Shown in pieces: positions 45,727 through 64,000 of a stretch of 64,000 bases of DNA. A model generated the notes under the pieces. It was not told where the DNA came from and did not search any database. It saw nothing but the letters and a program-made list of their open reading frames with translations. Numbering within the stretch: position 1 is the first letter of the stretch; each line of letters starts with the position of its first letter. The stretch comes from Edaphobacter bradus (lineage in GTDB: Bacteria > Acidobacteriota > Terriglobia > Terriglobales > Acidobacteriaceae): positions 558,001 to 622,000 of the forward strand of contig NZ_JAGSYF010000001.1 in NCBI RefSeq assembly GCF_025685645.1, given 5' to 3'. A program made the position numbers and the translations under genes.

Positions 45727-45748
45727 ATAATTTAAGTACTCAAATTAT
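45727..45748. promoter_or_regulatory. Palindromic operator overlapping the gntR start codon
   Basis: The core AATTTaAGTACTcAAATT (45729-45746) is palindromic except for one pair, and two further bases on each side also pair, giving 22 bp that run into the ATG at 45747. Position between promoter and start codon of a GntR gene, in a divergent control region, points to an operator for that regulator. Confidence 0.65.
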
Positions 45749-46421: not shown

Positions 46422-46422
46422 T

Positions 46423-47190
46423 ATGGCGGATGAACTGACGGGGAAGGTGATTGTGCTTACGGGAGGCGCGGACGGGATTGGCCGCGAGTGCGCGCTTGCC
46501 TATGGACGCGAAGGTGCGACGGTCGCGATTGTTGACCGCGACTTGGACGCGGCACAGCGAACGGCGGCTGAGCTCGGCGGCGGCAGCATCGCGCTTGGTG
46601 CGGATGTCTCCGATGGAGAAGCGGTCCGTAGCACGATAGCGGCTGTGGTGAGCCAGTTCGGGCGCATCGATGCGGTCCACAATAACGCCGGCATAGCGAG
46701 TCCTTCGAAACCGCTGCACGAGACCACGGAGCAGGAGTGGGACGATCTGCAGCGGACGAACGTGAAATCCGTTTACTGGACGACAAGGTTTGCATTCGAA
46801 GCTCTGGTGGCAAGCCAGGGCTGCATTTTGAATACTGCGAGCATGGTGGGGCTGATCGGGCAGACAGACCACGCAGCTTACGTGGCAAGTAAGGGCGCGA
46901 TGATCTCGTTGACCAAGGCGATGGCGGCGGATTATGCGCGCCATCCGATTAGGGTCAATGCAATCTGTCCGGCTGGCGTATGGACGCCGATGCTGGAGCG
47001 GTGGTGCGCCGAGCAGCCGGAACCGGACAGTATCCGGCGATACCTGGATGAGATCCACCCTCTGGGCTACTGCCCGCGCGGTGACGTGATTGCTGACGCC
47101 GCAGTGTTCTTACTCTCAGCCAAAGCACGGTTTATGACCGGGTGCATTCTGCCGGTGAGCGGCGGAGCTGAGTTGGGCTACAGAAGATAA
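46423..47190 (+). CDS. Short-chain dehydrogenase, probable L-fucose dehydrogenase
   Basis: A 255-residue classical SDR. The cofactor loop is GGADGIG (residues 14-20); Asp38 after the second strand (IVDRD) suggests NAD preference. NNAG lies at 87-90, and the catalytic residues are Ser140 (NTASMVG), Tyr153 and Lys157 (YVASKGA). It begins 1 bp after the gntR stop and precedes an L-fuconate dehydratase gene, so oxidation of L-fucose to its lactone, or of 2-keto-3-deoxy-L-fuconate, are the two leading activities; sequence alone does not separate them. The start at 46423 was chosen over 14 upstream in-frame codons inside gntR. Confidence 0.85.
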   Translation: MADELTGKVIVLTGGADGIGRECALAYGREGATVAIVDRDLDAAQRTAAELGGGSIALGADVSDGEAVRSTIAAVVSQFGRIDAVHNNAGIASPSKPLHETTEQEWDDLQRTNVKSVYWTTRFAFEALVASQGCILNTASMVGLIGQTDHAAYVASKGAMISLTKAMAADYARHPIRVNAICPAGVWTPMLERWCAEQPEPDSIRRYLDEIHPLGYCPRGDVIADAAVFLLSAKARFMTGCILPVSGGAELGYRR

Positions 47191-47207
47191 CGCCAACCGG
47201 AGAGGCG

Positions 47208-48464
47208 ATGCCGAGTTACACAATCAACAAAATCTCAACTCACGATGCGAGATACAAGCTACCCGCAGGGGCGGGGACGGATGCTGTCCACACGGATCCT
47301 GAATACTGCATGGCAGTGACCCTGCTGGGGAGCGATCACGGCCTCTGCGGGACAGGGATCGCGCTCACGCTGGGAGAGGGCAACCGGCTGGTGTGCGAGG
47401 CGATTGAAATGCTCGCGCGACCGCTTGCAGGCCTGGAGATCGAAGAGTTGATGGCCGACTTCGGGAGCATGGCCCGGCGTTTGGGCAACGATCCGTCTCT
47501 GCGTTGGCTTGGTCCGCACAAGGGCGTGGTTCATCTGGCGCTGGCCTCCATTACCAACGCCTGTTTCGATCTATGGGCGAAAAGCCGTGGGGTTCCGCTT
47601 TGGAAACTGCTGCTTGACCTGAAGCCGGAAGAGGTGGTTCGGCTGCTGGATCTGAGCTATGTGGAAGATGAGATGAGCGCGCAGGACGTGCTTGAGCTGT
47701 TGCGCAACAAACTGGCCACCCGTCCGGAGCGGGAACACATTCTTGCGAATGGCTATCCAGGGTATGACACCTCAGTGGGATGGATGGCGTATGACGACGA
47801 TAAGGTGCGTGAACTCACGCTGCGAGCGATCGACCAGGGATTTAACGCGTTCAAGCTAAAGGTGGGTTCCTCCGACGCGGAGCGTGACCTGCGCCGTGCA
47901 GCGATGCTGCGGGAGTGCGTTGGAGACGCGGGAACATTGATGCTCGATGCGAACCAGCGCTGGAGCCTGCCGGTGGCGCTTCGCCGCTGCAGGGAGCTCG
48001 CGAAGGTCCGGCCGCTTTGGATTGAAGAGCCCACCCATCCTGACGACATACATGGTCATGCCATGCTGGCGCATGCGATAGCGCCAGTGAAGGTCGCAAC
48101 GGGAGAGCACATACCGAACCGCGTGGTCTTCAAGAATTTCATGCAGTCTTCGGCAGTGCATTACGTTCAGGCCGACTGCACGCGATTGGCGGGAGTGAGC
48201 GAGTTTCTCACGGTGAGTCTGGTGGCGAAGAAGTTTGGGCTGCCGATCGCACCGCACGTAGGCGATATGGGCCAACTGCATCAACACCTGGTGCTCTTCA
48301 ACCATATCGCGATGGGACATGAGGCGTTGCTGCTTGAGCACATTCCGCACCTGCGCTCTCACTTTGTGTTGCCTGCGCAGGTGAGCGGCGGGGTTTACAA
48401 GACACCACAGGAACCTGGCGCCTCCTGCGATCTCAAACCAGTTTCCTGCGGAAGAGCTAAGTGA
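47208..48464 (+). CDS. L-fuconate dehydratase (enolase superfamily)
   Basis: Dehydrates L-fuconate to 2-keto-3-deoxy-L-fuconate in the cytoplasm, with Mg2+. In the 418-residue protein the catalytic Lys-x-Lys (Lys216, Lys218 in FKLKVG), the metal ligands Asp247 (LMLDANQRW), Glu273 (WIEEPTHPDD) and Glu300 (ATGEHIPNR), and His350 (IAPHVGDMG) are all intact and nearly match the numbering of the characterised Xanthomonas enzyme. The segment GYPGYDTSVGWMAYDDDK is a family hallmark. It is slightly shorter than the usual 430-440 residues. It overlaps the transporter gene by GTGA at its end. Confidence 0.9.
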   Translation: MPSYTINKISTHDARYKLPAGAGTDAVHTDPEYCMAVTLLGSDHGLCGTGIALTLGEGNRLVCEAIEMLARPLAGLEIEELMADFGSMARRLGNDPSLRWLGPHKGVVHLALASITNACFDLWAKSRGVPLWKLLLDLKPEEVVRLLDLSYVEDEMSAQDVLELLRNKLATRPEREHILANGYPGYDTSVGWMAYDDDKVRELTLRAIDQGFNAFKLKVGSSDAERDLRRAAMLRECVGDAGTLMLDANQRWSLPVALRRCRELAKVRPLWIEEPTHPDDIHGHAMLAHAIAPVKVATGEHIPNRVVFKNFMQSSAVHYVQADCTRLAGVSEFLTVSLVAKKFGLPIAPHVGDMGQLHQHLVLFNHIAMGHEALLLEHIPHLRSHFVLPAQVSGGVYKTPQEPGASCDLKPVSCGRAK

Positions 48465-49474
48465 CGGAACATCTCTTGTATGGCGTTACCCTGACCATGA
48501 TCGCCGGGCTGATGTCAGGCAACTGTATGTTGCCTATGAAGTTTACGCGGTCGTGGAAATGGGAGAATGTTTGGCTGATCTTTAGCGTGGTCTCGCTGCT
48601 GGTCCTGCCGTGGGCGCTCGCGGTCGTTCTGGTGGACCACTTGTTGGATATTTATCGCGGGCTAGGGATGGGACGGCTGGCCGTTCCCCTGTTGCTTGGA
48701 GCGGGTTGGGGCGTTGCGCAGATATTGTTCGGCATCTCAGTAAAGCGTCTGGGACTAGGAGTGGCGTACGCGATCATCGTTGGGTTGGGAGCGGTGTTGG
48801 GAACGCTGGTCCCGCTGCTGCTCCAGCAGAATGCGTCCGCGATCGGACACGCGGCGTACTACATCTTCAGCGGCGTCATCATCATGGTGGCGGGGATGTT
48901 CTTTACGGCTTGGGGCGGGCAGATAAGAGAGCACGGATCGTCCGTTGCGGCGAATACGCCATCGCGCCAAGGGTACGCTGCCGCGATCCTGCTTGCACTG
49001 ATCTGCGGGATCATGGCACCGATGCTGAACTACTCGTTTGCGTTCGGGCAGGATATTGCGAAGGAGGCAATCCGGCTTGGGGTCACCGCAGTACACGCGG
49101 GCTATGCCGTGTGGCCGATTGCGCTGGCGGGCGGATTTATTCCGAACATCGCGTACTGTTTCTATCTACTCTCGAAGAACGGGACGTGGCAATCGTTTCG
49201 TTTGCCTGGACAGGACTTTTTCTGGTCGTCGCTGATGGGGATCCTGTGGATGGGGGCGTTTGCGCTGTACGGCATGAGCGCGAGCTATCTGGGAGCATTC
49301 GGAACGTCCATCGGATGGGGGCTCTTTCAGATATTCATGATTATGACTGCGACATTGTCGGGAGTTCTGGCGGGTGAATGGAGGAAGGCACCAGGGTGGG
49401 CGATAACGCTCCTGGGGGTGGGACTGACGTGTTTGACGGGCGCGACGATCCTGCTCGCGCTTGGCAACCGGTAG
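48461..49474 (+). CDS. RhaT-family sugar/H+ symporter, probable L-fucose carrier
   Basis: An inner-membrane protein of 337 residues with about ten membrane segments, beginning LTMIAGLMSGNCMLPMKFTR, followed by WKWENVWLIFSVVS and later GWGVAQILFGISVKRLGLG and SIGWGLFQIFMIMT, as in the L-rhamnose/proton symporter RhaT. L-rhamnose and L-fucose are both 6-deoxy-hexoses, and the coupling to a fuconate dehydratase gene through a GTGA overlap suggests that L-fucose is the substrate here. It ends the gntR operon and converges on a TPR gene 35 bp away with no clear terminator between. Confidence 0.88.
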   Translation: MTEHLLYGVTLTMIAGLMSGNCMLPMKFTRSWKWENVWLIFSVVSLLVLPWALAVVLVDHLLDIYRGLGMGRLAVPLLLGAGWGVAQILFGISVKRLGLGVAYAIIVGLGAVLGTLVPLLLQQNASAIGHAAYYIFSGVIIMVAGMFFTAWGGQIREHGSSVAANTPSRQGYAAAILLALICGIMAPMLNYSFAFGQDIAKEAIRLGVTAVHAGYAVWPIALAGGFIPNIAYCFYLLSKNGTWQSFRLPGQDFFWSSLMGILWMGAFALYGMSASYLGAFGTSIGWGLFQIFMIMTATLSGVLAGEWRKAPGWAITLLGVGLTCLTGATILLALGNR

Positions 49475-49509: not shown

Positions 49510-52083
49510 CTACTTCTGCATTGAGTCCAATATCTGGAGCGCCTTTGCCACATCCGGGTCGGCAGGCGAAAGCTTCTGTGCTACGAGTAACTCGGCGCGT
49601 CCGTTCTTCAGTTCACCGGAGCGGCAGTAGATGAGCCCAAGATCCTTGTGAAGCAGCGGCAGCGCACTACAGTCTTTGCAGAGCTCAATGCCCTCCTTCA
49701 ACTGGGCGATCGCTTGCGGCCAATCGTGAGCCTCCGCCGAGGCCAAGGCAAAGTTGCCCAGCGTCTGGGCGCGATCCATGAGGTGCTTCTGTGTCTGCAG
49801 ATCATCGAATCGGGTCTGTAGGCGCTTCGCATCCTCGGGGTCGGATTTGGCAAGCAGACGGGCGAGATTATAGAGGGCCTCGCCATAATCGGGCTGAATC
49901 TCAATGGCCTTGCGCCATTGCTGAGTTGCGCCGGCACTATCCCCCTTGTGCAGCAGTTCGCGGCCGAGCATGTACCGCGCCTCGGCGTAATCGGGCTTCA
50001 AGGCGACGGCCTGTGAAAACTGCCCGATGGCCGTCTCGGTATCTCCGGATTGCCGGGCAATCAGACCCAAGAGATACCAGGATTCTGTCGACCTCGAGTC
50101 AAGCTTCGTTGCTGCCTCCAGCTCCGGCTTTGCCTCCTGATTGCGCTGGAGATCGAGCAGGACTCTGCCTCGGTTGTAGTGGGCGACTGCACTATCAGGA
50201 GCAAGGCGCACCGCCTCAGAGAACTCGGCGAGAGCATCGTTCAGATTGAACTGATCTGCCAAGGCAATTCCCAGATTCAGATGAGCCTCCGCAGCCTGAG
50301 GATTGAGTTCGATCACCTTGCGAAAGGAGGCGATGGCCTCGGCGTGGCGGTTGAGACGGGTCAATACCATTGCATCGGCGGTGAGAGCGGAGGTGTTGTT
50401 GGACTCGAGTTGCACCGCGTGATGCAGCACCTCTTCCGCTTCTGCAAAGCGTGCCTGACTTGCCAGGACGAGTCCGAGATTCACAAAGGCCCGGGTGTAT
50501 TTGGGATTGTTCTCCGTCGCCTGCCGGAAAAGGCGTTCTGCTTCCTGATTATTTCCCTGCTGGCCATACAGGACGCCCAGATTGCCCTGCGCCTCGGAGT
50601 ACTGCGGGTCGAGCGAAATGGCGAGTTTGAGCTGCTGCTCGGCATCCGCCATCTGCCCTGCCTGCAGGCTGAGCAGCCCAAGCTGATTGTGGGCGGGAGC
50701 GAATGCAGGGTCTAAAGCGATCGACTTGGCGAGAGCGTCGCGCTCGGCAGCAAGATCTCCCGCTCGATCAAGAGCCAGCGCGTAATCGTAGTAGGTGCGT
50801 GAATTGTTCGCATCTTCGGCAAGAGCTTCACGGTAGAGTTCAAGGGCCTTCTGCACCTCACCTGTGACCAGATATTGATTAGCCTGGTTGACTTTGACGC
50901 CGGCTACGTCCTGCTTTACGGTCTCTGCTTTCTTCTGCTGGAAGACTTTCAACTCTTCGTTGGCCTGATCTTTCTGGCCGAGGGAGCGCAGGACAGAGGC
51001 GAGCTGAAACCGGGCTTCGCTGGAGCCGGGATTGAGTTGCAGCGCCCTTTCAAACTGCACTCGCGCTTCAGCAAACTTATCGAGCTTAGCCAGAACAAAG
51101 CCTAAATCGTAATGGGCGTCATAGTGATCCGGCTGAAGCGCTACGGCCTTGGATAGCGTCCTTTCCGCCTCGGTATATCTACCGAGTTCACGGTCTACAG
51201 CTCCCACAAGATAGAGAGCCTCGAAATCGTTGGGCTTGCGGCGAAGGTAGTCTTCAGCCAGCGGCAGTGCGGTATCGAGCTGCGCGAGAATGATCAATGC
51301 TTTGATGTAAGAGGCACGAGCAACATCATCTGTCGGATCAAGCCGCAGCGCCTGCTGAAACTCGTCGGCCGCATCGCGGTAGCGGCTCTGCTGGGTATAG
51401 AGGATAGCGAGGTTTACGTGCGCCTGCGCGTAGTCTGGGTGATCTTTCACGATTGCAGAGAGGGTTTGCAGCGCTTCCTCGAGATTTCCGTTCTTTGAGT
51501 AGGCGATGGCGAGATTCAATGCCAACACTTCGTCAGGTGGTGCATCCTTCAGATAGGCAATGGCCGCCGAGTATCTCTTCTCCGCAATCAGCGCCTTGGT
51601 TAGACCGTCCAGGGCAGGTATGGATTTTGCATCGATCTTCAGAACGGCCTTGAATGCATCGATGGCGGCGTCGGGCTGGTTCGACTGATTGAGTGCGACT
51701 CCAAGCGCGAGCTGTATACGTGGGGTTCCCGGCTTCAGACCTGACGCGGTCCGAAGTTCCCGCACTGCTTGTTCCGCATCGCCGTGTTGCAGGAGGGCAA
51801 TCGCGAGATCATAGTGAGCCTCCCACGACCCGGGGGCAAGATGGAGCGCAGAGCGGAAGGCGGAGAGGGCGCAAGAGAACCGCTGTTGCTGCCCAAAGTA
51901 AGCGCCGAGCGCATCGTAGGCAGCCGCTGAAGGATGCGCGGCGATGGCGCGCTCCAACTCGGCCGGACCTTTGCAATGCGGCGTCCGTGATTGAGCGATG
52001 GCGTAGCCGCAGCAACACAGGACAGTTACGGTGGAACGAAATATACCGGAAGAGGTAAAGCGAGCAATCATTGCTGCAAGCAT
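49510..52083 (-). CDS. Secreted tetratricopeptide-repeat protein
   Basis: An 857-residue protein made almost wholly of 34-residue tetratricopeptide repeats, roughly twenty in number (for example YDAHYDLGFVLAKLDKFAEA and AEARYMLGRELLHKGDSAGA). An N-terminal hydrophobic segment (FRSTVTVLCCCGYAIAQS) looks like a signal peptide, so it should reach the periplasm. No catalytic domain is present, implying a scaffold. The start may be the ATG at 52083 or the one at 52071. It diverges from the CRTAC1 gene at 52374; the 290 bp between them show no recognised feature. Confidence 0.83.
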   Translation of the reverse strand: MLAAMIARFTSSGIFRSTVTVLCCCGYAIAQSRTPHCKGPAELERAIAAHPSAAAYDALGAYFGQQQRFSCALSAFRSALHLAPGSWEAHYDLAIALLQHGDAEQAVRELRTASGLKPGTPRIQLALGVALNQSNQPDAAIDAFKAVLKIDAKSIPALDGLTKALIAEKRYSAAIAYLKDAPPDEVLALNLAIAYSKNGNLEEALQTLSAIVKDHPDYAQAHVNLAILYTQQSRYRDAADEFQQALRLDPTDDVARASYIKALIILAQLDTALPLAEDYLRRKPNDFEALYLVGAVDRELGRYTEAERTLSKAVALQPDHYDAHYDLGFVLAKLDKFAEARVQFERALQLNPGSSEARFQLASVLRSLGQKDQANEELKVFQQKKAETVKQDVAGVKVNQANQYLVTGEVQKALELYREALAEDANNSRTYYDYALALDRAGDLAAERDALAKSIALDPAFAPAHNQLGLLSLQAGQMADAEQQLKLAISLDPQYSEAQGNLGVLYGQQGNNQEAERLFRQATENNPKYTRAFVNLGLVLASQARFAEAEEVLHHAVQLESNNTSALTADAMVLTRLNRHAEAIASFRKVIELNPQAAEAHLNLGIALADQFNLNDALAEFSEAVRLAPDSAVAHYNRGRVLLDLQRNQEAKPELEAATKLDSRSTESWYLLGLIARQSGDTETAIGQFSQAVALKPDYAEARYMLGRELLHKGDSAGATQQWRKAIEIQPDYGEALYNLARLLAKSDPEDAKRLQTRFDDLQTQKHLMDRAQTLGNFALASAEAHDWPQAIAQLKEGIELCKDCSALPLLHKDLGLIYCRSGELKNGRAELLVAQKLSPADPDVAKALQILDSMQK

Positions 52084-52373: not shown

Positions 52374-54176
52374 GTGATCAGGAATTGCTCTTTTGCCCGC
52401 TATGCCAGTCTCTCTCTTGTTCTCTTGTGCGCCGGCCTGCTGCTGGGTTGGTGCGGGAGCAGTATTGCTCATGCGCAAGGGATGGGAATGGCGACGGGTA
52501 ATGGGAAATCTACTCCCGCCAAACCGTTGCCTCCGGGAATGAAGGCGCCTGTTGTGCGGTATCAGGACATCGCGGCCCCTGCGGGATTAAAGGGCGTCAA
52601 CATCTCCGGTGCGGAGAAGGGCAAACAGTACATCATTGAGACCACTGGGACCGGTGTCGCGATCATCGACTATGACAACGATGGTCTCCCGGACATCTTT
52701 GTCGTGAACGGCGGGCGGCTGGACGATGGTCAAGCTCCGACGCACTATCTCTACCACAACCTCGGTGGATTGAAATTCGAAGATGTTACGGCGAAGGCAG
52801 GGCTGGCACACACGGGTTGGGGGCAAGGGGTGTGCGCGGGCGATGTAGATAACTCCGGAAACGTCGACCTGTTTGTCACGCAATGGGGGCAGAACGCTCT
52901 CTACCATAACCTCGGCAATGGAACGTTTCGTGACGAGGCGAAGGAGAGGGGACTGGCAACCGAGCAGCGGCGATGGAGCACGGGTTGTGCCTTCATTGAC
53001 TTCAATCGGGATGGTTTTCTTGATCTGGTAGTGGCGCACTATATCGAATTCGATCCGGCCAAGACGCCGCGGCCTGGAGATAAGTCGCAGTGCCGGTGGA
53101 AAGGCCTGCCGGTGTTGTGCGGTCCTCGGGGACTGCCGGCAGAGACGGTCTCGCTGTACGAGAACGATGGGCACGGCCATTTCAAGGACGTCTCCGATCA
53201 ACTCCATGTGACGACCCCGAAGAACTACTATGGCTTCACCGTACTGACGGGGGACTTCGACAACGACGGCTGGCCGGATATCTACGTGGCTTGCGACTCG
53301 ACCGCAAGCCTTTACTACCATAATCTGGGCGGGAAGGGCTTTGAGGAGATCGCTGCGAAGGCCGGTGTAGCTTACAACGAAGATGGCCGCGAACAGGCTG
53401 GAATGGGAGTGAGTGCTGGAGACTTCAATCATGACGGTCAACTGGACATCTTCAAGACCAACTTCGCAGACGACACACATACGCTCTATCGCAGCGAGGG
53501 CGACAACAATTTCGTGGATGCGACGATCGATAGCGGTCTCGCGGTGAACACGCGTTATCTGGGATGGGGAACCGCGTTTCTCGACATCGACAATGATGGG
53601 TGGCCTGACCTGATCGTCGCCAACGGGCACGTGTATCCCGAGGTGGAAGACGGACACACGGGCGAGCGTTTCAAGCAGCAGCGGCTCCTCTATTGGAACC
53701 GGAGAGACGGCCAGTTCTTCGACCTCTCCGGGGCGGGCGGACCGGGTATATCCGACGAGCACTCGTCGCGCGGTCTCGCAGTGGGAGACCTGGACAACGA
53801 CGGCGAGCAGGAGATCGTTATCGTGAACATGGGAGAGGCGCCCACGCTGCTCAAAAACGTTGCCCCTGTGAGCGGGAGTTCTCTAACGGTACGGGCGCTG
53901 ACCGCTACTGGCCGGGATGCGATCGGCGCACGGGTTACGTTGAGCGCCGGAGGGCATAAACAGATCGACGAGGTCCGCAGCGGTGGCTCGTTTATGTCGC
54001 AGAGCGACCTGCGCCTGCACTTTGGTCTAGGCAAGTCGTCCGAGGCGGAGCTCACGGTCCGCTGGCTCAGCGGCAAGACCGAGACCTTTCCGAAGGTCGG
54101 TGCTGGGCAGATCGTTACGGTTCAAGAGGGCAAGGGCATCGTCCGCAAGCAGCCCTACACGCTTTCCAAAAAGTAG
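52374..54176 (+). CDS. Secreted CRTAC1-family protein (FG-GAP repeats, ASPIC/UnbV domain)
   Basis: A 600-residue exported protein with signal peptide (YASLSLVLLCAGLLLGWCGS), FG-GAP/VCBS calcium loops (DYDNDGLPDIFVVN, DVDNSGNVDLFVT, DFNRDGFLDLVVA, DFDNDGWPDIYVA, DFNHDGQLDIFKT, DIDNDGWPDLIVA) and a C-terminal ASPIC/UnbV domain (SLTVRALTATGRDAIGARVT ... LHFGLGKSSEAELTVRWLSG). It is probably a calcium-stabilised beta-propeller in the periplasm or on the surface; no activity is known. Translation starts at a GTG. Its end lies 12 bp from that of the TPR gene on the other strand. Confidence 0.88.
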   Translation: MIRNCSFARYASLSLVLLCAGLLLGWCGSSIAHAQGMGMATGNGKSTPAKPLPPGMKAPVVRYQDIAAPAGLKGVNISGAEKGKQYIIETTGTGVAIIDYDNDGLPDIFVVNGGRLDDGQAPTHYLYHNLGGLKFEDVTAKAGLAHTGWGQGVCAGDVDNSGNVDLFVTQWGQNALYHNLGNGTFRDEAKERGLATEQRRWSTGCAFIDFNRDGFLDLVVAHYIEFDPAKTPRPGDKSQCRWKGLPVLCGPRGLPAETVSLYENDGHGHFKDVSDQLHVTTPKNYYGFTVLTGDFDNDGWPDIYVACDSTASLYYHNLGGKGFEEIAAKAGVAYNEDGREQAGMGVSAGDFNHDGQLDIFKTNFADDTHTLYRSEGDNNFVDATIDSGLAVNTRYLGWGTAFLDIDNDGWPDLIVANGHVYPEVEDGHTGERFKQQRLLYWNRRDGQFFDLSGAGGPGISDEHSSRGLAVGDLDNDGEQEIVIVNMGEAPTLLKNVAPVSGSSLTVRALTATGRDAIGARVTLSAGGHKQIDEVRSGGSFMSQSDLRLHFGLGKSSEAELTVRWLSGKTETFPKVGAGQIVTVQEGKGIVRKQPYTLSKK

Positions 54177-54188: not shown

Positions 54189-55241
54189 TCATTGTGGTGG
54201 GGCCTGTTCGTATCCCTTGCGCACAGGTGGAGGAGTCTCCCGAGTCAGAACAGCATACTTCTCCGCCAGCTCCGTTTCACCCAGCCGCCGGTAGATCTGT
54301 TCCAGCAGCGCATAGATCTGGAGATCAATGATGCCGCCAATCTGTGCGGTGAGGCTGGCAGCCTTCTCGGCATCCGTTCGCGCCTCCGGATAGTTGCCCA
54401 GCCGCAGGTTGAGCTTCGCGCGGTCGTACCAGGTGGCGCGGAAATCAGGCACGAGTTCCACTGCGCGGTCGAGATGCCGCTTGCTCTCGACGAGTTGGTT
54501 ACGCTTGGCCAGAAAGCGACCGTAGTTGTAATCGAGAAATGCGTCGAATTGTGGTCCATCCTGGTTAACCGCAAGACCTTTTTTATAGGCGGCGTCGGCG
54601 CGATCCATTTCACCGAGCGGTTCCAGGTTCAGAGCGAGGTAATCCCATGCAGGAGCGTACCCGGGATCGAGATCCACTGCCTTCTGAAAATGCTTTACTG
54701 CTTCGGCGGGACGCTTGGCGCGATCGTACAGAGCTCCGAGTTGAAACTGTGCGTCGGCATCGTCGGGATCAAGCTCGCAGGACCTTTTGAGCAGTTCTAG
54801 GCCTAGCTGGGACTGCCGCTTCATATCCAGAATCTGACCACGCACCGCCAGCGCGGCAGGATCGCTGGGACTACGATCAAGCGCGCCGGCCGAGAGATCA
54901 TCGGCCCTCTGGTACTCGGCCTGATCGATGAGGAAACGGGCGAAGTACGCCATGCCGGTGGAATCGTCCGGCACTTGTTCTAGGTAGCGCAGGAACAGAT
55001 CTTGCGCCTCTGCGGCGGATCCTTGCGCCGCCTTGATCCGTGCACGCGCAAGCAGGAGTTGAGCGCAATCGGGATAAGCGCCCTGGAGCGGAGCCAGCAG
55101 ACTCTCGGCAGCAGTGACCGCATTGCGTGCGAGATCCCTTGAGATGGTCTTGATCTGAGACTCCGCCCCGCTGCAGGTATCCGCGAAGGCAGCAGGCAAG
55201 GCGACTGCCATCCACAGAAGATAGAACCAGATCGCTTTCAT
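54189..55241 (-). CDS. Exported TPR protein
   Basis: A 350-residue protein with a clear signal peptide (IWFYLLWMAVALPAAFAD) and about seven or eight tetratricopeptide repeats (for example ADAQFQLGALYDRAKRPAEA and FRATWYDRAKLNLRLGNYPE). Two Cys occur soon after the signal. It is translationally coupled to the CRTAC1 gene before it: stop and start overlap as ATGA at 55238-55241. It is the last gene of the cytochrome-CRTAC1-TPR operon and probably a scaffold for the other two products. Confidence 0.87.
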   Translation of the reverse strand: MKAIWFYLLWMAVALPAAFADTCSGAESQIKTISRDLARNAVTAAESLLAPLQGAYPDCAQLLLARARIKAAQGSAAEAQDLFLRYLEQVPDDSTGMAYFARFLIDQAEYQRADDLSAGALDRSPSDPAALAVRGQILDMKRQSQLGLELLKRSCELDPDDADAQFQLGALYDRAKRPAEAVKHFQKAVDLDPGYAPAWDYLALNLEPLGEMDRADAAYKKGLAVNQDGPQFDAFLDYNYGRFLAKRNQLVESKRHLDRAVELVPDFRATWYDRAKLNLRLGNYPEARTDAEKAASLTAQIGGIIDLQIYALLEQIYRRLGETELAEKYAVLTRETPPPVRKGYEQAPPQ

Positions 55242-56947
55242 GACGCGCCCTCGGTCACCTTAAGAATCTGATCCGCCTTCACGTTGTGCAGAACCTGGAT
55301 CGTCCCGCTCGGCCAGCGGAGTTCGATCTCCTTCACCAGCTTGTCATGACCGAGGCCGAAGTGGACCCGCTTGTCCGAGGAACTCGCATAGCTTCCGGCG
55401 GTCGTCACTTGGTTATACTGCACGACGCCGGACTGCGAGATGAGCTTGATCTGCGTGCCGATGCCATCGCGGTTACTCTTGACTCCGATGGTCTGAATCA
55501 GCAGCCAATGGTTGCCGCTTGCGGATGTGTTGTAGAGGAGCTCGGCTGGACCTCCGATCGCCGAGACGACGACATCGATCCTGCCATCGTTATTCAAATC
55601 GCCGAAGGCACAACCGCGATGGGCTGCCCGTAGGGATAGAGCAGCGCCTGCCTGTGCGCTTACGTCCTGAAAAGTGCCGTTCTGCAAGTTCTGAAAGACG
55701 GCGTTGGCCTGCCGGTAGTGCTGCTGCGGGTCGAGATCGGCGTTCTCACTTACATGCGAGTTCGCGCTGAACAGGTCCTTGAAACCATCGTTGTTGAAGT
55801 CATAGATACCAGCTCCCCAGCCGCTCATCTTGAATGTGGGGAAGCCGATCCGGGCGGGATAGGTGTCCATCCTGAAGAAACCATTCCCTTCGTTCCGGTA
55901 CAGGGGGAAGGTCTCGCCACCGAGAGCGGTGATGAAGAGGCTGGGACGGCCGTCGTTGCGATAGTCACGAAAATCGACGCCCATGCTCGAGAGGGGAAGG
56001 CCATCATCCGTGTAGGCCACGCCGGCCTCAACGCCGATTTCGTCGAAGCCCTTGCCCTTACGGTTCCTGAACAGGAAGTTTCTCTCGTTATCGTTCCCGA
56101 CGAAGATATCCATCCATCCATCTCCATCGTAATCCGCGATGGCTACGCCCATGCCTTTGCCGATCTGACTGGCGATGCCGGTCGCCGTTGAGACATCGGT
56201 GAAGGTACCATCGCCGTTGTTGTGATAGAGGATGTTCGGCTGGCCGGGGTAGAGCGATGGCGGGCATGACAGGCGCTTGCCGGGTGCGCCACAGACCTTG
56301 GAAGTCTCAGGCGACCAGTCCAGATAGTTCGTTACAAAGAGATCGAGGCGGCCATCGTTGTCGTAATCAATCCACGCGGAGGAGACCGCCAACAGTTTCT
56401 TGCCTTCGGGCGTAACTCCGGAGACGCCAGCGCGCTGGGTTACATCGGTAAATGTCCCGTCGTGATTGTTGCGGTACAGGATGTTCCGATTGATCCCGGT
56501 GACATAGAGATCGGTCCATCCATCATTGTCAAAGTCCGCTGCAGCCGCACCCATGCTGTAGCCTGCGCCGCGCAAGCCGGCACGGTCGGTTACATCGGTA
56601 AATGTCCCGTCGTGATTGTTGTGATAGAGCCGGTTATAGAAGCTAGGCCCCTCTTTGGAGAGAGTGGGGATCTGTGCGCCGTTGGTGAAAAAGATGTCGA
56701 GGTAGCCGTCGTTGTCATAATCCAGCAGAGCGACCCCGCCCGGAATGCTGTCGATGATCGGCTTATCGCTGGTGGTTCCGTTGTTCAGAACGAAATCGAC
56801 GCCTGACTGCGGCTGGCGATTTTCAAAGCGAATCTCGGCCTCGTTCTGGGCGAACAGGCCTTGAGTACACAAGGCCAGCAGCAGCCCAGTTGTAACGGCG
56901 CAGGTGGATGGTTGGAAACGGACTCGCTGCAGACTGCGGTTGATCAT
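55238..56947 (-). CDS. Secreted CRTAC1-family protein in the cytochrome operon
   Basis: A 569-residue exported protein: signal peptide (CAVTTGLLLALCTQGLFAQ), then FG-GAP/VCBS calcium loops (DYDNDGYLDIFFTN, DFDNDGWTDLYVT, DYDNDGRLDLFVT, DYDGDGWMDIFVG, DFNNDGFKDLFSA, DLNNDGRIDVVVS) and a C-terminal ASPIC/UnbV domain (NHWLLIQTIGVKSNRDGIGT ... HFGLGHDKLVKEIELRWPSG). Both ends overlap neighbours as ATGA, with the seven-heme cytochrome upstream and the TPR gene downstream, so the three products are made in fixed relation and may form one complex. Two FG-GAP units share an identical 34-bp stretch (see repeat). Confidence 0.9.
   Translation of the reverse strand: MINRSLQRVRFQPSTCAVTTGLLLALCTQGLFAQNEAEIRFENRQPQSGVDFVLNNGTTSDKPIIDSIPGGVALLDYDNDGYLDIFFTNGAQIPTLSKEGPSFYNRLYHNNHDGTFTDVTDRAGLRGAGYSMGAAAADFDNDGWTDLYVTGINRNILYRNNHDGTFTDVTQRAGVSGVTPEGKKLLAVSSAWIDYDNDGRLDLFVTNYLDWSPETSKVCGAPGKRLSCPPSLYPGQPNILYHNNGDGTFTDVSTATGIASQIGKGMGVAIADYDGDGWMDIFVGNDNERNFLFRNRKGKGFDEIGVEAGVAYTDDGLPLSSMGVDFRDYRNDGRPSLFITALGGETFPLYRNEGNGFFRMDTYPARIGFPTFKMSGWGAGIYDFNNDGFKDLFSANSHVSENADLDPQQHYRQANAVFQNLQNGTFQDVSAQAGAALSLRAAHRGCAFGDLNNDGRIDVVVSAIGGPAELLYNTSASGNHWLLIQTIGVKSNRDGIGTQIKLISQSGVVQYNQVTTAGSYASSSDKRVHFGLGHDKLVKEIELRWPSGTIQVLHNVKADQILKVTEGAS
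56438..56621. repeat. 34-bp exact direct repeat inside the CRTAC1 gene
   Basis: The same 34 bases occur at 56438-56471 and 56588-56621, exactly 150 bp (50 codons) apart, both encoding NNHDGTFTDVT. The in-frame spacing and nucleotide identity suggest recent conversion or duplication of a propeller blade. Confidence 0.9.
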
Positions 56948-58752
56948 TTCTGTGAAGGTTCTCCTTTAGCGAGACCCAGCATCTTCCGCATATAGGAATC
57001 CTGAGGAAATATCTCCAGGTAGTGCTCCATTGCGGCGAGAGCGTTCGAGTATTGCTTCATATTGATGAGGCGCACAACCAGCGCCCTCTGCAGCACCGGA
57101 TTGAAGGGATCGAGCACCGTTGCCTTCTGCAGCAGGGCGAGCCCCTCCTCGGCGCGGCCCAATTTTGTCATGACCTCGGCAAGATCACCATAGACCGTGG
57201 CCTGTGGAGGTCCGAGCTGCAACGCGCGATGCAGATGGTCGGCCGCTTCCTGCAGCTTGCCACTCTTGAGATCTCTGCGACCCAGAGCAGCCTGCACTAT
57301 GGCCTTGTCGGGATCGGTCTGCTCCAGTTGTGCGAGGACCTTGAGATAAGGAGCAACATACTCCGGTTTACTCGCGGCAAGCTCGCCATAGGCCTGCAAG
57401 AGGGTGAGCGGTGGGACGACATCATCTTTCCTGCCGGGTATAGGGTTGAGATGAATCAGATCCGGTAAAGCCGGGGTGGTCTGATGTAAGGCGGTTTCCG
57501 GAAAGCCTTCGTCAGGTCGGGCGAGAATCCTGTGGCTAGTGACGCTTGAGTGCGAAATCACCTGCACATCACGCTTCGGCATATGGCAGCCGATGCAGTT
57601 ATCTACGGGCTTGCTGCGCTCGCGTGCGGCATGGGACCCTTTGCAGCTCTGTTGAGTGTGGCAGGTCAGGCATCTTGCGTTGAAGTACGCCGGCGCCTCT
57701 TCCCGCGAGGGCTCCACATGCGGATTGTGGCAGGTGATGCATCCCATGCGGCCTGCGCTGGCCCGATAACACTTGCTCAAAGACATCGAGTAGAAGTGCT
57801 CAAGATGATCGGCCTGCGGGGGTGACTCCCGGGTTGGAGGAACCATCAGGATCGAGAGGACATCGTCCAGTGGCGTGCCCGGCCTGAAGTCTTGATACGT
57901 CTTGCCCTGTTTGAAGACGCGCACATTGCCGGTTTGATGGCACGACATGCAGATGTTGTTCGCCAGATCCATGCTGAGCCTGGCGGGATTTACGATAGAG
58001 TGGCCCTGGCCCCTCTCGGGTGAGTCTCCCGAATCCATCGCGCGAATGTGCGCCGCTCCTGGCCCGTGACAGTTTTCACAGCCGATGGCCATCTCGGTAA
58101 ACGGCGGGGTTTCAAAGCGTCCATTGGTTGCGGCGACCGGCCGCGGGCGGCCGCTGTGGCAGGAGATGCAACCGGCGAGGATAGGGCGGTTGAAGCCGTA
58201 ATCTCCGAACTCGTACCCCGGGGACGGCCCCCAAGTGCCTGGTTTGGAATAGAAGGACAGGGGTGCCTGGAAGAGATAGTTGTCGCGCTGCAACAGAGCT
58301 CCGAAGCCGTTGGCTCCTGCTCCAATGATCCAATCGACCTCGTGCGAGTCCCGAAATATCTCCTTCCCACCCGCATCCGTCTGGTACTCGCTCTGGTACA
58401 GCTTTCCATCCCTGGAATGCACTTCAAAGTGCCGGTCCAACTTGTCATCGTAGAGGTCGGCCGAGACGGGCAGAGTCTGCAAGAGCTCTGGAGTGATCGG
58501 AGACATGGACCGGCCCATGCTCGTCCGCGAAAACTGCTTGTAAATTCCGAGATGACACCGGGAACAGCTTGCTGACCCCACGTAGCCATCGCCGTCCGGG
58601 GTGGCCGGGAGCTGGATGGCTGCCCCTTGGCGTTGCTTTACGGCAGGGGCCGCTTTCTGGGTTTGGCCGAAGCCTTCCAGCAGCAGGAGGGTTGAGACGC
58701 TGCACAGCATCCATCCTGCGTACTTTTGCAACCGTCGCTGTTCAGTCTTCAT
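56944..58752 (-). CDS. Seven-heme cytochrome c with C-terminal TPR domain
   Basis: An exported 602-residue protein. After the signal peptide (GWMLCSVSTLLLLEGFGQ) come seven CXXCH heme sites, in order CSRCH, CISCH, CENCH, CMSCH, CITCH, CLTCH and CIGCH, all within about residues 60-400. The C-terminal 150 residues are four or five tetratricopeptide repeats. The layout resembles periplasmic multiheme cytochromes of the nitrite-reductase/octaheme relatives, but the catalytic CXXCK motif was not found, so electron transfer is more likely than reductase activity. The ATG at 58752 gives the signal peptide. It leads an ATGA-coupled operon with a CRTAC1 and a TPR gene. Confidence 0.9.
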   Translation of the reverse strand: MKTEQRRLQKYAGWMLCSVSTLLLLEGFGQTQKAAPAVKQRQGAAIQLPATPDGDGYVGSASCSRCHLGIYKQFSRTSMGRSMSPITPELLQTLPVSADLYDDKLDRHFEVHSRDGKLYQSEYQTDAGGKEIFRDSHEVDWIIGAGANGFGALLQRDNYLFQAPLSFYSKPGTWGPSPGYEFGDYGFNRPILAGCISCHSGRPRPVAATNGRFETPPFTEMAIGCENCHGPGAAHIRAMDSGDSPERGQGHSIVNPARLSMDLANNICMSCHQTGNVRVFKQGKTYQDFRPGTPLDDVLSILMVPPTRESPPQADHLEHFYSMSLSKCYRASAGRMGCITCHNPHVEPSREEAPAYFNARCLTCHTQQSCKGSHAARERSKPVDNCIGCHMPKRDVQVISHSSVTSHRILARPDEGFPETALHQTTPALPDLIHLNPIPGRKDDVVPPLTLLQAYGELAASKPEYVAPYLKVLAQLEQTDPDKAIVQAALGRRDLKSGKLQEAADHLHRALQLGPPQATVYGDLAEVMTKLGRAEEGLALLQKATVLDPFNPVLQRALVVRLINMKQYSNALAAMEHYLEIFPQDSYMRKMLGLAKGEPSQK

Positions 58753-59178: not shown

Positions 59179-59320
59179 GGCATCCGAGTCCAGTTAGCGT
59201 GAAAGTAAAGGAAAAAACAGCTTTGACGGAGAATACTGTTCTGGGATGTTTGGCACGGAAAACATGCGGATAGGAAAGACTTTAGGGAGGCTGGACGTGG
59301 AACGAATAAATCGGGGACGC

Positions 59321-62300
59321 ATGAGAATGGCGAAAAAAGTGTTTCGAAGCGCGGGTCTGTTGAGCTGCGTTGTTCTGCTGTTCTCGGCGCAGATGTTTGC
59401 CCAACTCTCCACCGCGGCCCTCAACGGAGTGGTTCGCGACTCGACTGGAGCGATGGTGCCCAATGCAAGGGTTACGCTGACCGCGGTGGACACCGCGGTG
59501 GACCACACAACCCTGTCCAACAACGCCGGCGAGTACGTCTTCACCAGTCTCACGCCGGGTAAGTACACCGTCCAGGCGTCCGCAAAGGGGTTCGAGACAA
59601 AGAAAGTCTCTGCGTTCCTGCTGGCCGTAGGCCAGACGGGAACAATCGACTTCACGCTCGCCGTCGGCACTGAATCGAGCGTCGTTACCGTTGAAGCGCA
59701 GGCAGAACAGCTTGATGCAACCAGTTCGAACTTGGGCACGGTGCTCGCCACCAAGCAGATAAACGAGTTACCCACGAATGGTCGCAACTTTACCTCGTTG
59801 CTTTCGTTGACGCCAGGCGTCGTTCCGGTCAGCACAGGTCAAAACGGCAGCCAGGGCGGGGGCGGATTCTCCGCGCCGGTCGCAGAGGGCTCGTCGTTCA
59901 GTTTTCCTGCAGTCAATGGACAGACGAACCGCAGCAACTTCTTCCTGACAGACGGCCTCAATAACTTTGGCAGCATTCTGAGCACCTACGCGGTTCCTCC
60001 CATCATCGATGCAATTCAGGAGCTCAAGGTCGTCTCCCACACCGACAGCCCCGAATATGGTTCAGTCCTGGGTGGCGTGGTCAATGTCGTCAGCAAGACC
60101 GGCACCAACGCCTTCCATGGGTCGGCTTGGGAGTACTTCCGCAATGACGCGCTCGATGCCCGTGCAACTTTTCTGAAGAGGATCCCGGATCCTAACAACC
60201 CAAGCAATTCTCTGCCCGGTAAAAAGCCAACCTTCCATCAGAACCAGTTTGGCGGATCCTTGGGGGGCCCCGTCTGGATTCCGAAGGTTTACAACGGGAA
60301 GGACAAGACATTCTTCTTCGTGGCCTACCAAGGATTTCGATACAATGAAGTGGCTGCCAATAACATATTGGTGCCGACAGCGGCACAGCTGGCCGGCGAT
60401 GAGACTGGTGCCAACCAAATCTACGATCCGTACTCTACCAGACCCGACCCTGCACATCCAGGCCAGTACCTTCGTGATCCCTTCCCGGGAAACCAGATAC
60501 CGGCAAGTAGGATCGATCAGCGTATGGTGGCCTTTGCCAAGTTCGTGTATCCCACGGCCGGCCCCCTTGTAAAAGGAACGAATGCCGTTGACAATACCCC
60601 GCTGGTGCAAACCGAGAACGAGTTCACTGCCCGTGTAGACCAGAACTTTGGCAAAAAGGACTCCGCGTGGTTCCGCTATAGCATGATCAACAACGTGGTG
60701 AGCAAGTCAGGCGGACTTCCGGGGCTGCAGGGCGCAAACTCCGTCCCCGCCCGTAACTGGGGAGGTAGCTACGTGCACGTCTTTGGGCCAAGCCTTATTC
60801 TGCAGTTGCAGTACGCTCGAACGACTGTCCGGTCCGACTCCACCAACCACTGGACCAAGTCGATCAACGACATCTTCACTACGGTCGGATTTAGCTCTGC
60901 ATTTGCTGGCGGCTTTGCTGCAAATGGAGGTGGAAACTTGCTTCCCGGGACGGGAATCAATGGTTATTCGGATGGTGGCGAGAGCATTAACCTTACACCG
61001 AAGGCCACAGACAGCCATCAGGTCAGCGGCGTCCTCACCAAGATTTTAGGCAATCATGAAATTCGTTTTGGCGGTGGCTTCATTAGCAATACTTTCGAAG
61101 CCCCCCTCGGGCAGATCGGTCTGCACTTCCTGGCACAGCAGACCGCGAGCCAAGAGGAAGTGCTGGATGCAAGCGGTCACCCGATAGCGACAGGTGACCC
61201 GGTAGCTTCATTCCTGTTGGGCGTTCCGGACGGAGCCAACCGCCGCAATGTAAACGAAAAGACCCGGCCGGGTGGTGTGATGGACTTCTTTCTCCAGGAT
61301 TCCTGGAAGGCGACGTCAAAGCTCACTGTCAACTACGGCCTTCGCTACGACTACTCCTTCCTTCCTCCGTATGGTACCAACGACACCATCGGTCAGAATG
61401 GAGGAATCGAGACCGGCGACATGAACTTCGCCAACGGAACCTATGTTCTGCAGAAGCTTCCACCAACCTGTGCAGCCAGAGGCTACGCGCCCTGCATCCC
61501 AGACCCCAGCGGTCAACTCCCCGCTCACGTGGTCGTCGATCCGCGCGGCAAGATCGCTCACAACTTCACCGGCAACTGGGGGCCGCGCCTCGGTTTCTCC
61601 TATCGCCTGGGAGAAAAGACGGTGCTTCATGGCGGTTACGGCATCGTCTATGACAACTGGGCTGCTGTGTCCCAGATGGCGCAGAACATCGAAGGTTCCT
61701 GGCCCGATATCGGTCAGTTGCTCGCTAACGGCCTGAACCAGCCAACTTCGGCTTCACCCACTCCGAACCGGACCGTGCAGAATCCGTTTGGCAGTGTGGG
61801 AGGCGGGCTCTTCCCGGCCGCCACCCCATTCGACCAGGTGCAGTGGTTCTACGATCCCAATATCAAGAACGCTTACTCGGAGCAGTGGAACGTCGGTATC
61901 CAGCGTCAGCTCAACTCGTCCACAGCCATCACGGCCAACTACGTAGGCTCCGGTGATCATCGGGTGGTTACAGGCGGCTACTACAACACCGCCTTGACAC
62001 CTGGACCGGGCGATCCGCGGACACGGTCCCTGTACCCCTATATTGCGCCGACTTTCTACGACCGCAGCACCGGGACCTCTTCCTACAACGCTGCGCAGTT
62101 TCAGTTGGATAAGCGTTACTCAAGTGGACTGTCCTATTCCGTCGGCTACACCTATTCCAAGTCGATCAACGCCGGTGGCGATGGATGGTTCGGTGCAGAA
62201 GGTGGTTCTCCGGTTGACCCCTATCATCCCAACAAATTCGGAAGCCGCTCAGTGTCTGGTACGGATCTCACCCACGTCCTGACGGAAAACACGATCTTCC

Positions 62301-62812
62301 AGATTCCAGTCGGTAAGGGACATCGCTGGTCCACGGGCAGCGGCTGGGCGGACTATCTCCTTGGGAGTTGGCAGCTCAACAATTTCCTCACGGTCCGGTC
62401 CGGCCTTCCATACACTCCCACCATCAGCAGTGACATCGCGAACACTGGGAACGTTGGGTGGTCTGGATATGAACATGCCAATCTCGTGGGTGATCCTCAC
62501 AAGAATGTTCCCAAGGGCGATGGATTCAATCCCGCGGCTTACACGGCTCCGGCGCAATATACCTTCGGCACTGCTGGTCGAAACTCGTTGCGTTCCGCGC
62601 ACTATATCAATATGGACGCGTCGATCTTCCGCCAGTTCCCAGCATGGGAAGAAACAAGATTCGAGTTCCGGCTTGAGGCGTTCAACCTGTTCAACCATCC
62701 AACCTTGGGTACACCCAATAGCGACTTGAATAATGGAACGCGTTTCGGGTTGATTAACAGTACCTCAAGCACAGCCAGACAACTACAACTAGGCGGAAAG
62801 TTCATCTTCTAG
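59321..62812 (+). CDS. Oar-like TonB-dependent receptor
   Basis: A 1163-residue outer-membrane receptor. After the signal peptide (RSAGLLSCVVLLFSAQMFAQ) there is a carboxypeptidase-regulatory-like domain (LNGVVRDSTGAMVPNARVTL ... GEYVFTSLTPGKYTVQASAK, about residues 30-120). A plug domain follows (NELPTNGRNFTSLLSLTPGV, VNGQTNRSNFFLTDGLNN, VVNVVSKTGTNAFHGSAWEY), then a long beta-barrel ending in Phe (LGGKFIF). No TonB box is obvious, as is usual for acidobacterial Oar proteins. ATG codons at 59321 and 59327 are both possible starts; 25 upstream in-frame codons lie in the leader. With a GH29 gene 114 bp downstream, uptake of a fucose-containing oligosaccharide is a likely role. Confidence 0.9.
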   Translation: MRMAKKVFRSAGLLSCVVLLFSAQMFAQLSTAALNGVVRDSTGAMVPNARVTLTAVDTAVDHTTLSNNAGEYVFTSLTPGKYTVQASAKGFETKKVSAFLLAVGQTGTIDFTLAVGTESSVVTVEAQAEQLDATSSNLGTVLATKQINELPTNGRNFTSLLSLTPGVVPVSTGQNGSQGGGGFSAPVAEGSSFSFPAVNGQTNRSNFFLTDGLNNFGSILSTYAVPPIIDAIQELKVVSHTDSPEYGSVLGGVVNVVSKTGTNAFHGSAWEYFRNDALDARATFLKRIPDPNNPSNSLPGKKPTFHQNQFGGSLGGPVWIPKVYNGKDKTFFFVAYQGFRYNEVAANNILVPTAAQLAGDETGANQIYDPYSTRPDPAHPGQYLRDPFPGNQIPASRIDQRMVAFAKFVYPTAGPLVKGTNAVDNTPLVQTENEFTARVDQNFGKKDSAWFRYSMINNVVSKSGGLPGLQGANSVPARNWGGSYVHVFGPSLILQLQYARTTVRSDSTNHWTKSINDIFTTVGFSSAFAGGFAANGGGNLLPGTGINGYSDGGESINLTPKATDSHQVSGVLTKILGNHEIRFGGGFISNTFEAPLGQIGLHFLAQQTASQEEVLDASGHPIATGDPVASFLLGVPDGANRRNVNEKTRPGGVMDFFLQDSWKATSKLTVNYGLRYDYSFLPPYGTNDTIGQNGGIETGDMNFANGTYVLQKLPPTCAARGYAPCIPDPSGQLPAHVVVDPRGKIAHNFTGNWGPRLGFSYRLGEKTVLHGGYGIVYDNWAAVSQMAQNIEGSWPDIGQLLANGLNQPTSASPTPNRTVQNPFGSVGGGLFPAATPFDQVQWFYDPNIKNAYSEQWNVGIQRQLNSSTAITANYVGSGDHRVVTGGYYNTALTPGPGDPRTRSLYPYIAPTFYDRSTGTSSYNAAQFQLDKRYSSGLSYSVGYTYSKSINAGGDGWFGAEGGSPVDPYHPNKFGSRSVSGTDLTHVLTENTIFQIPVGKGHRWSTGSGWADYLLGSWQLNNFLTVRSGLPYTPTISSDIANTGNVGWSGYEHANLVGDPHKNVPKGDGFNPAAYTAPAQYTFGTAGRNSLRSAHYINMDASIFRQFPAWEETRFEFRLEAFNLFNHPTLGTPNSDLNNGTRFGLINSTSSTARQLQLGGKFIF

Positions 62813-62880: not shown

Positions 62881-62925
62881 GTTCCCTAAGTTAAACTAAC
62901 GAATGTGTTTAGAAGGATGGGGCCG

Positions 62926-64000
62926 ATGCTCAATCGTAGTGCAGCCTGGAGATGCGGGATAGTGGCCGGCAGCCTGTTTTTTACCAGTGTCGCGGGCGGT
63001 GCGCAGTCGTCCGGTAAGCAACATTATGAGCCGGCGCTGAGCTCTCTCAATAGCCATCCCCTTCCGCAGTGGTACGCCGACGCGAAGCTCGGGATATTCG
63101 TTCATTGGGGACTGTATTCGGTGCCGGGTTGGGCACCGCTGCAGCACCCCAACCACGACTTCGCTTCGTCCGATTACATCAAAAACAATCCTTACGCCGA
63201 GTGGTATTACAACGTCATGCGTGTCCCTGGCTCGCCCACCGCGGCCTATCATCGAGAGCACTTTGGCGCCAACTTCAGTTACTACGACTTCGCTCCCATC
63301 TTCGACAAGGAGACGCAGAAGTGGGATGCGGACCAGATGGCCAAGGCCTACAAGGACGCTGGGGCGAGGTATGTTGTGCTGACGACCAAGCATCACGATG
63401 GCTTCACCCTGTGGCCCAGTGAGGTGGAGAATCCTAATCAGAGGAATCTGCACGCGTCCCGGGATCTCGTCAAGGACCTTACAGAATCGGTCCGCAAGGC
63501 GGGGATGCGGATGGGACTCTACTACTCGGGAGGATACGACTGGACCTTCAATCGCGGTCCGATTCTTGACCCTTCGGACTATGAGACGGTCAAACCTGAA
63601 AGTATTGCCTACGGCAGATATGCGGACGCCCAGATCGAAGAGCTGATCAATCGCTATCACCCCTCAGTTCTCTGGAACGACATCGATTGGCCGAAGACCG
63701 GTCATCCGTTGAAGATCATGGCGGACTACTACAACGCCGTGCCAGACGGTGTCGTGGATGATAGGTATGGCGTCAAGCACTCCGATTTCACCTCACCCGA
63801 ATACGCTAAGCTCGATGAGATCAGCCCGACGAAGTGGGAGGAGTGCCGTGGCCTGGGCCAATCCTTTGGCTACAATCGAGCCGAAGGCGAGGCCGAGACG
63901 ATTGCTCCGGCTGAACTCATCAGTCTGCTCGTGGATATCGTGAGCAAGAATGGCAACCTGCTGCTCGATGTGGGGCCGGAGGCCGATGGGACGATTCCGC
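62926..64000 (+). CDS. Alpha-L-fucosidase (GH29), C-terminus beyond the window
   Basis: The frame is open to the window end and gives 358 residues. After a signal peptide (CGIVAGSLFFTSVAGGAQ) come GH29 motifs: WYADAKLGIFVHWGLYSVPG, TTKHHDGFTLWPS, MGLYYSGGYDW and SVLWNDIDWP with the nucleophile Asp at about residue 252, then NGNLLLDVGPEADG near the edge. The WND-I/M-x-WP context matches classical GH29 enzymes such as that of Thermotoga, unlike WFDG in the first fucosidase here. AGAAGG lies 9 bases before the ATG at 62926; an in-frame ATG at 62917 abuts it and is less likely. It follows the TonB receptor gene and probably acts on what that receptor imports. Confidence 0.93.
   Translation, partial: MLNRSAAWRCGIVAGSLFFTSVAGGAQSSGKQHYEPALSSLNSHPLPQWYADAKLGIFVHWGLYSVPGWAPLQHPNHDFASSDYIKNNPYAEWYYNVMRVPGSPTAAYHREHFGANFSYYDFAPIFDKETQKWDADQMAKAYKDAGARYVVLTTKHHDGFTLWPSEVENPNQRNLHASRDLVKDLTESVRKAGMRMGLYYSGGYDWTFNRGPILDPSDYETVKPESIAYGRYADAQIEELINRYHPSVLWNDIDWPKTGHPLKIMADYYNAVPDGVVDDRYGVKHSDFTSPEYAKLDEISPTKWEECRGLGQSFGYNRAEGEAETIAPAELISLLVDIVSKNGNLLLDVGPEADGTIP

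Follow-up and report, generated by a model that had tools for sequence, protein, structure and literature searches.

In a stretch of 64,000 nucleotides from Edaphobacter bradus (the window; contig NZ_JAGSYF010000001.1, C1:558001-622000 of the 4.75-Mb genome), three adjoining genes on the minus strand encode a c-type cytochrome with seven CxxCH motifs and a tetratricopeptide repeat (TPR) tail, a CRTAC1 protein and a separate TPR protein. Two results are the sturdier part of our analysis: CRTAC1 genes recurrently pair with genes for multiheme cytochromes, and the cytochrome represents an OcwA-like heptaheme family with an invariant cysteine that is a candidate heme ligand. Tentatively, with confidence that stays somewhat below even, we suggest that the trio is the exported redox module of a locus for fucoside use, consisting of a heptaheme oxidoreductase and a CRTAC1 partner and coupled to glycans. 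The genes in question are the following, in window positions:

56944..58752, minus strand: seven-heme c-type cytochrome with predicted OcwA/MccA-like core and C-terminal TPR (seven CxxCH motifs, Pfam, AlphaFold2 (AF2) models, PDB matches)
57769..57771, minus strand: codon of C328 of the cytochrome, invariant Cys in S-x-C, candidate heme ligand
55238..56947, minus strand: CRTAC1 protein of 569 aa, FG-GAP propeller repeats and ASPIC (Pfam)
54189..55241, minus strand: TPR protein of 350 aa (Pfam)

Both junctions of the trio are ATGA overlaps of 4 nt. Genes, strand, domains and overlaps are as a preliminary description of this DNA had them, judging by open reading frames (ORFs) and Pfam. The same description read the overlaps as translational coupling with a fixed product ratio; the overlaps permit coupling, but a fixed ratio is an interpretation for which overlaps alone are insufficient. 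The cytochrome ORF extends over 56944-58821 when it is read from a GTG. The ATG at 58752 is the better start, since two related loci (L038 and L039; such labels are our own) have orthologues that start at this point or no more than three residues away. Counted from this ATG, the CxxCH motifs lie at residues 63, 195, 225, 268, 338, 361 and 386, and the C-terminal repeats match TPR_19 and TPR_2. The CRTAC1 protein carries both FG-GAP (FG-GAP_3, E 1.7e-55) and ASPIC (UnbV_ASPIC, E 2e-21). All three proteins seem to have export signals, which were judged by eye rather than with a prediction program.

The full-length AF2 model of the cytochrome (predicted local distance difference test, pLDDT, 88.9; predicted template modelling score, pTM, 0.85) has a beta-rich insertion between hemes 1 and 2. 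Because fold searches with this model returned TPR structures throughout the best 50 rows, the heme domain was also folded alone (pLDDT 89.2, pTM 0.88). Its best fold match is OcwA (PDB 6i5b), from Thermincola potens, with a Foldseek E of 2.5e-8 and a Z of 15.8 (293 residues, 3.8 A). Then come 6qvm, the undecaheme cytochrome from Carboxydothermus ferrireducens (Z 11.0, 259 residues, 4.0 A), and the octaheme sulfite reductase MccA (4rkm, 4rkn; Z 9.1, 275 residues, 4.4 A); the next row, with Z 6.0, is unrelated. Profile matches give a similar picture, with 6i5b again at the top (E 2.9e-20) and 6r2q (2.2e-16), 6qvm (7.3e-12), 4rkm (9.3e-10) and c554 (2.2e-9) behind it. The entry 6r2q is labelled 'Cystathionine beta-synthase', but its sequence is multiheme, and we take it to be the MtrA chain of the MtrCAB complex. 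By its predicted heme-core fold, the cytochrome thus belongs to the OcwA/MccA/c554 superfamily.

Several closer assignments were rejected. The scores for the decaheme families DmsE (43.4 bits, cut-off 192.2) and GSU2203 (70.8 bits, cut-off 325) are too low, and the HZS_alpha domain of hydrazine synthase alpha is absent (Pfam, E <= 0.01). The protein is not OcwA proper, which has nine hemes and a C-terminal three-helix bundle, whereas the window cytochrome has seven CxxCH motifs, a TPR tail, the invariant cysteine, and CRTAC1 and glycan neighbours; in its model, nothing but a short helix (419-422) separates the heme domain from the TPR helices, which start at 448. Nor is it MccA proper, which has eight hemes. 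MccA also has a copper site with two cysteines near heme 2; there seems to be no sign of it here, and C328 does not appear to match either cysteine.

C328 lies in an S-x-C motif about 10 residues before heme 5 and is Cys in every row of three alignments (40/40, 63/63 and 70/70). These alignments share members; the larger two use 62 and 69 of 78 sequences, thinned, from the named relatives (the best 80 of 431 confirmed loci, with L095 and L114 left out of the alignments). In 59 of the 70 rows, a second Cys lies between hemes 6 and 7; the remaining 11 have no extra Cys in the heme domain besides C328, so a plain disulfide cannot be its sole role. At the same site, S-x-C is also found in three octaheme relatives and S-T-M in a 409-aa octaheme cytochrome from the window's own genome; 6r2q carries S-S-H, shifted by one residue. 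Cys, Met and His all serve as heme ligands. Because the invariant Cys sits where related cytochromes have Met or His, C328 is probably a heme ligand. A third covalent bond to heme, or a redox thiol, would be an alternative role; a third covalent bond has been noted for a heme of hydrazine synthase (PMC12758564).

The other conserved candidates for distal ligands in the 70 aligned heme domains are M79 (64 Met, 6 His), H235 (70), H345 (70), H401 (68) and H407 (70). With C328, this makes six candidates for seven hemes, which could leave one heme open. By analogy with the related OcwA and MccA, which have an open, high-spin heme 2, it is probably heme 2 (C195-H199). In OcwA, hemes 2 and 5 are open and heme 9 has His/Met ligation, and the protein is related to NrfA, c554 and MccA (PMC6703420).

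Which genes accompany the cytochrome was asked across the class. With a threshold of E <= 1e-20, 29 of 61 relatives have a homologue; with E <= 1e-80, homologues are present in 61 of the 399 genomes of the class and in 31 of its 135 genera. The latter gave 66 places and 64 stretches (one place shares the stretch of L200, and G200, at a contig edge, was left out); after L231 with its broken cytochrome had been dropped, 63 loci remained. Calling genes by the longest ORF hid some CRTAC1 genes under shadow ORFs (as in L039 and L252). The key neighbour counts (CRTAC1, TonB, octaheme, TPR) were recounted over all ORFs, with score thresholds of our own, and the gene-order counts by longest ORF (overlaps, gene slots, fucose genes, named relatives) are lower bounds.

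A CRTAC1 gene lies within 400 bp of the cytochrome gene in 28 of the 63 loci (23 on the same strand), and a TonB-type receptor gene within 5 kb in 33. Homologues of a second TPR protein of the window locus, of 857 aa, occur somewhere in the fetched stretch in 22 loci. The 350-aa TPR protein, in contrast, is the least conserved member: it is kept in seven loci of three genera (the window, L038, L039, L192, L193, L195 and L196), so that the ordered trio is rejected as a generally conserved unit. Set against the counts for CRTAC1 and TonB, this means that the trio is the local form of a looser association. The candidate complex of the preliminary description therefore survives as a link of the cytochrome with CRTAC1 and TonB-type receptors, not as the exact trio.

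In the 23 same-strand pairs, the cytochrome gene comes first in nine and the CRTAC1 gene in 14; in 10 pairs, which come from four genera and include both orders, the two genes share 1 or 4 nt. Both 4-nt overlaps of the trio recur in L038, and L039 has one of 1 nt and one of 4 nt, so the overlaps of the trio are more than chance. The same holds for position. CRTAC1 genes occupy 27 of the 238 slots that lie no more than two genes from the cytochrome, as against 2 of 144 slots at least seven genes away (Fisher P 1.2e-4), and TonB-type receptor genes fill 23 of 238 as against 0 of 144 (P 1.2e-5), counts and P values that take no account of kinship among the loci. These figures speak against the explanation that abundant CRTAC1, TPR and TonB-type genes merely travel in islands, with overlaps as ordinary compaction and no joint function, and so do the short overlaps in both gene orders and the pairing of CRTAC1 with multiheme cytochromes of other types (see below). 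Such hitchhiking would fit the seven CRTAC1-type genes of the genome, four of which are in the window, the scatter of the closest homologues within the genus, and the rarity of the full trio among the loci; on balance, we regard it as improbable.

An octaheme cytochrome gene is found nearby in 14 of the 63 loci. As a partner in the window locus, an octaheme protein was rejected, since none is encoded there; the best match in the own genome is on contig C2 (E 3.3e-21, 30% identity). The octaheme neighbours are what one would need for a chain of relays, and the best fold match, OcwA, has been described as a terminal reductase on the cell surface (PMC6703420). The cytochrome could accordingly be an electron relay only. 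With every heme six-coordinate and without chemistry of its own, it would be a conductive arm, periplasmic or on the cell surface, through which electrons released in sugar catabolism reach acceptors outside. We consider this quite unlikely, given that there are only six conserved distal-ligand candidates for seven hemes and that the NapC/NirT entry point was not found in the genome.

Further genes near members of the family include, as chosen examples, those for glycoside hydrolases (GH29, GH13, GH127, melibiase, GH38, GH3), SASA enzymes, a LacI regulator, a pyrroloquinoline quinone (PQQ) dehydrogenase with a cytochrome domain, GFO/IDH/MocA proteins and 3-keto-disaccharide hydrolases. One hydrolase domain of the last kind is fused to FG-GAP repeats near a heptaheme-TPR gene (L059:10449-12425). 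Two close relatives have a 390-aa seven-heme paralogue without TPR beyond the receptor gene (L038:14740-15912 and L039:3297-4472). In L216, L220, L230, L232, L234 and L235, a 771-880-aa protein with two CxxCH motifs recurs together with an ORF of about 480-530 aa, placed between the octaheme and CRTAC1 genes or ahead of CRTAC1; a two-CxxCH protein of like size in L088 is PSCyt1/DUF1549/DUF1553.

CRTAC1 genes can also be followed in their own right. ASPIC proteins are present in at least 24 of 31 relatives. We sampled 30 CRTAC1 places by taking every third of the best 88 rows in order of score, which is not a random draw. In seven of them, an ORF with at least four CxxCH motifs lies within 400 bp of the CRTAC1 gene. 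Among controls, such an ORF adjoins 6 of 332 genes in the flanks of the cytochrome loci and 0 of 69 in stretches of the own genome (binomial P 7e-5, treating the 30 places as independent); without L261 and L275, the figure is 6 of 28 (P 4e-4). A TonB-type receptor gene lies within 5 kb of CRTAC1 in nine of the 30 places and a TPR ORF within 2.5 kb in 12.

The partners are of several kinds. That of L261 is of the heptaheme type, those of L267, L269, L282 and L279 are pentaheme-TPR proteins, and L258 and L283 supply the others; L267, L269 and L282 probably represent one orthologous locus of one genus, and Pfam was run on four of the seven proteins (L258, L267, L279, L283). A second pair in the own genome, on contig C4, consists of a CRTAC1 gene and then a pentaheme-TPR gene, 69 nt apart. 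On contig C3, a TonB-type receptor, a TPR protein and CRTAC1 are encoded co-oriented (L254:9285-15670), with no cytochrome in view. The L258 partner is an HZS_alpha-domain protein (PF18582, E 9.2e-19) from a genome of the same class, whose multiheme gene (L258:2683-4482) overlaps the CRTAC1 gene. It is a pair of the kind reported in 2025, where CRTAC1 genes adjoin genes for exported multiheme enzymes, namely homologues of hydrazine-synthase alpha and beta-gamma (PMC12758564). Unlike these, the window cytochrome has no HZS_alpha domain, and a beta-gamma homologue is not seen beside its gene.

The pairing of CRTAC1 with multiheme proteins is hence already published for one enzyme type, and the claim that the system is undescribed does not wholly hold. 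For the heptaheme-TPR family, we found no paper in the open-licence literature; PMC3174227 just lists an ASPIC gene. As to function, we know of no tested bacterial role for CRTAC1/ASPIC proteins.

The genes around the trio point towards fucosides:

44251..45612, minus strand: GH29 alpha-L-fucosidase
45687..49474, plus strand: GntR/FCD regulator, SDR, MR_MLE enzyme and RhaT-type transporter
49510..52083, minus strand: TPR protein of 857 aa (Pfam)
52374..54176, plus strand: second CRTAC1 protein, facing the trio (Pfam)
59246..62812, plus strand: TonB-type receptor, OMP_b-brl_4 and CarboxypepD_reg (Pfam), divergent from the cytochrome gene
62905..63999, plus strand: GH29 alpha-L-fucosidase, continuing beyond the window end

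The second CRTAC1 gene and the 857-residue TPR gene had been described correctly, and so had the setting, with fucose genes on one side and a TonB-type receptor plus a GH29 fucosidase on the other. We take the MR_MLE enzyme to be fuconate-dehydratase-like. Fucose-type genes are present in the stretches of 10 of the 14 closest homologues (score at least 700) as against 7 of the 49 others, which supports the proposed glycan link. A comparison offers itself with the SusCD-type polysaccharide utilization loci of Bacteroidota. The window locus resembles them in its TonB-type receptor, glycoside hydrolases, sugar regulator and TPR-type proteins. It differs by the added multiheme cytochrome and CRTAC1 and by its TPR proteins, both of which match TPR-type families only and not the SusD family (Pfam; best 25 of 38 matches for the 857-aa protein).

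Together, these observations suggest a model for the trio. The cytochrome would be a heptaheme oxidoreductase, two hemes short of OcwA, in which a TPR arm takes the place of the OcwA helix bundle. Six of its hemes would be six-coordinate, one with His/Met (M79) and one with His/Cys (C328) ligation, and the seventh, probably heme 2, would be open and serve as the reaction site. By analogy with the bladed beta subunit of hydrazine synthase, the CRTAC1 propeller with its seven calcium-type loops might be the partner subunit, and the TPR proteins could be docking or scaffold parts. With the TonB-type receptor and GH29, the module would either supply electrons to a reaction of the imported sugar, or of its aglycone, in the periplasm or carry them away from it.

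Several findings weigh against this model. The AF2 models are of single chains without heme and without a complex. No CRTAC1 gene lies within 400 bp in 35 of the 63 loci, no TonB-type receptor gene within 5 kb in 30, and none of the tracked partners is present in nine, some of which are on short contigs; the disregard of kinship in the neighbour counts belongs here as well. Conversely, 23 of the 30 sampled CRTAC1 genes have no adjoining multiheme gene. No exported sugar-oxidising enzyme or dehydrogenase was recognised in the annotated part of the window locus, and a NapC-type membrane partner was rejected, as a NapC/NirT protein had no match in the genome. Finally, the association thins out among the named relatives. 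For the matches listed, the nearest named relative at the locus is a Granulicella metagenome-assembled genome (cytochrome 85% identical), and the family spans Acidobacteriota, Planctomycetota and Bacteroidota; CRTAC1 lies within five genes in 14 and TonB in 11 of 79 named relatives. Nearly all these cases are acidobacterial or planctomycetal, with four or five of the 14 CRTAC1 cases planctomycetal and none from Bacteroidota, whose relatives have neither CRTAC1 nor TonB within that distance by the queries used. Our confidence in the full mechanism is lowered because named relatives outside Acidobacteriota mostly lack the partners.

The missing partners beside Bacteroidota cytochromes mean that the core reaction need not concern sugars, and it may be older than the glycan link. 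They would also suit a reductase of the NrfA/MccA kind that acts on a nitrogen or sulfur compound, for respiration or detoxification, and has fucose neighbours through a shared low-oxygen, polymer-rich niche or through joint transfer. The closest solved folds, OcwA and MccA, agree with such a role, as does the sporadic spread of the family over the class; OcwA reduces nitrite and reacts with hydroxylamine (PMC6703420). Two points speak against such a role: in many genera, genes for TonB-type receptors and for glycoside hydrolases recur next to members of the family, and no nitrogen or sulfur respiration gene was seen among the annotated neighbours, which are a part of all neighbours. We judge a reductase of this kind to be rather unlikely and prefer the glycan-coupled module.

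If the repeated pairing is genuine, it would offer a first testable role for bacterial CRTAC1/ASPIC proteins, as partners of exported heme enzymes, at which the 2025 work on hydrazine synthase also hints (PMC12758564). The heptaheme family, often found at acidobacterial glycan loci, would tie carbohydrate uptake to multiheme redox chemistry. A bolder version, which we think unlikely, makes CRTAC1 propellers the general partners of several unrelated types of exported multiheme oxidoreductase. In this version, the heptaheme-TPR proteins would be a new class of redox enzymes for sugars or aglycones at the point of acidobacterial glycan uptake, in which one heme has the invariant Cys as ligand and another is open.

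Some minor features of the locus deserve mention. Upstream of the TonB-type receptor gene, a stretch of about 157 bp occurs as a tandem pair (58950-59106 and 59123-59279), whose members are spaced by 171-174, are about 89% alike and each contain a TTGACA box. The listed receptor ATG lies inside the second copy, so translation may in fact begin further into the gene. The gap between the receptor gene and the divergent cytochrome gene contains a 22-nt direct repeat (58868-58889 and 58898-58919), a possible operator, which is not seen in the corresponding gap of L038. Elsewhere in the window, a CRTAC1 gene (36351-38282) directly follows, on the minus strand, a gene (38298-41963) for a 1221-aa protein with TPR, FG-GAP and ASPIC, and similar tandems are present in relatives, for example in L256, L257 and L284.

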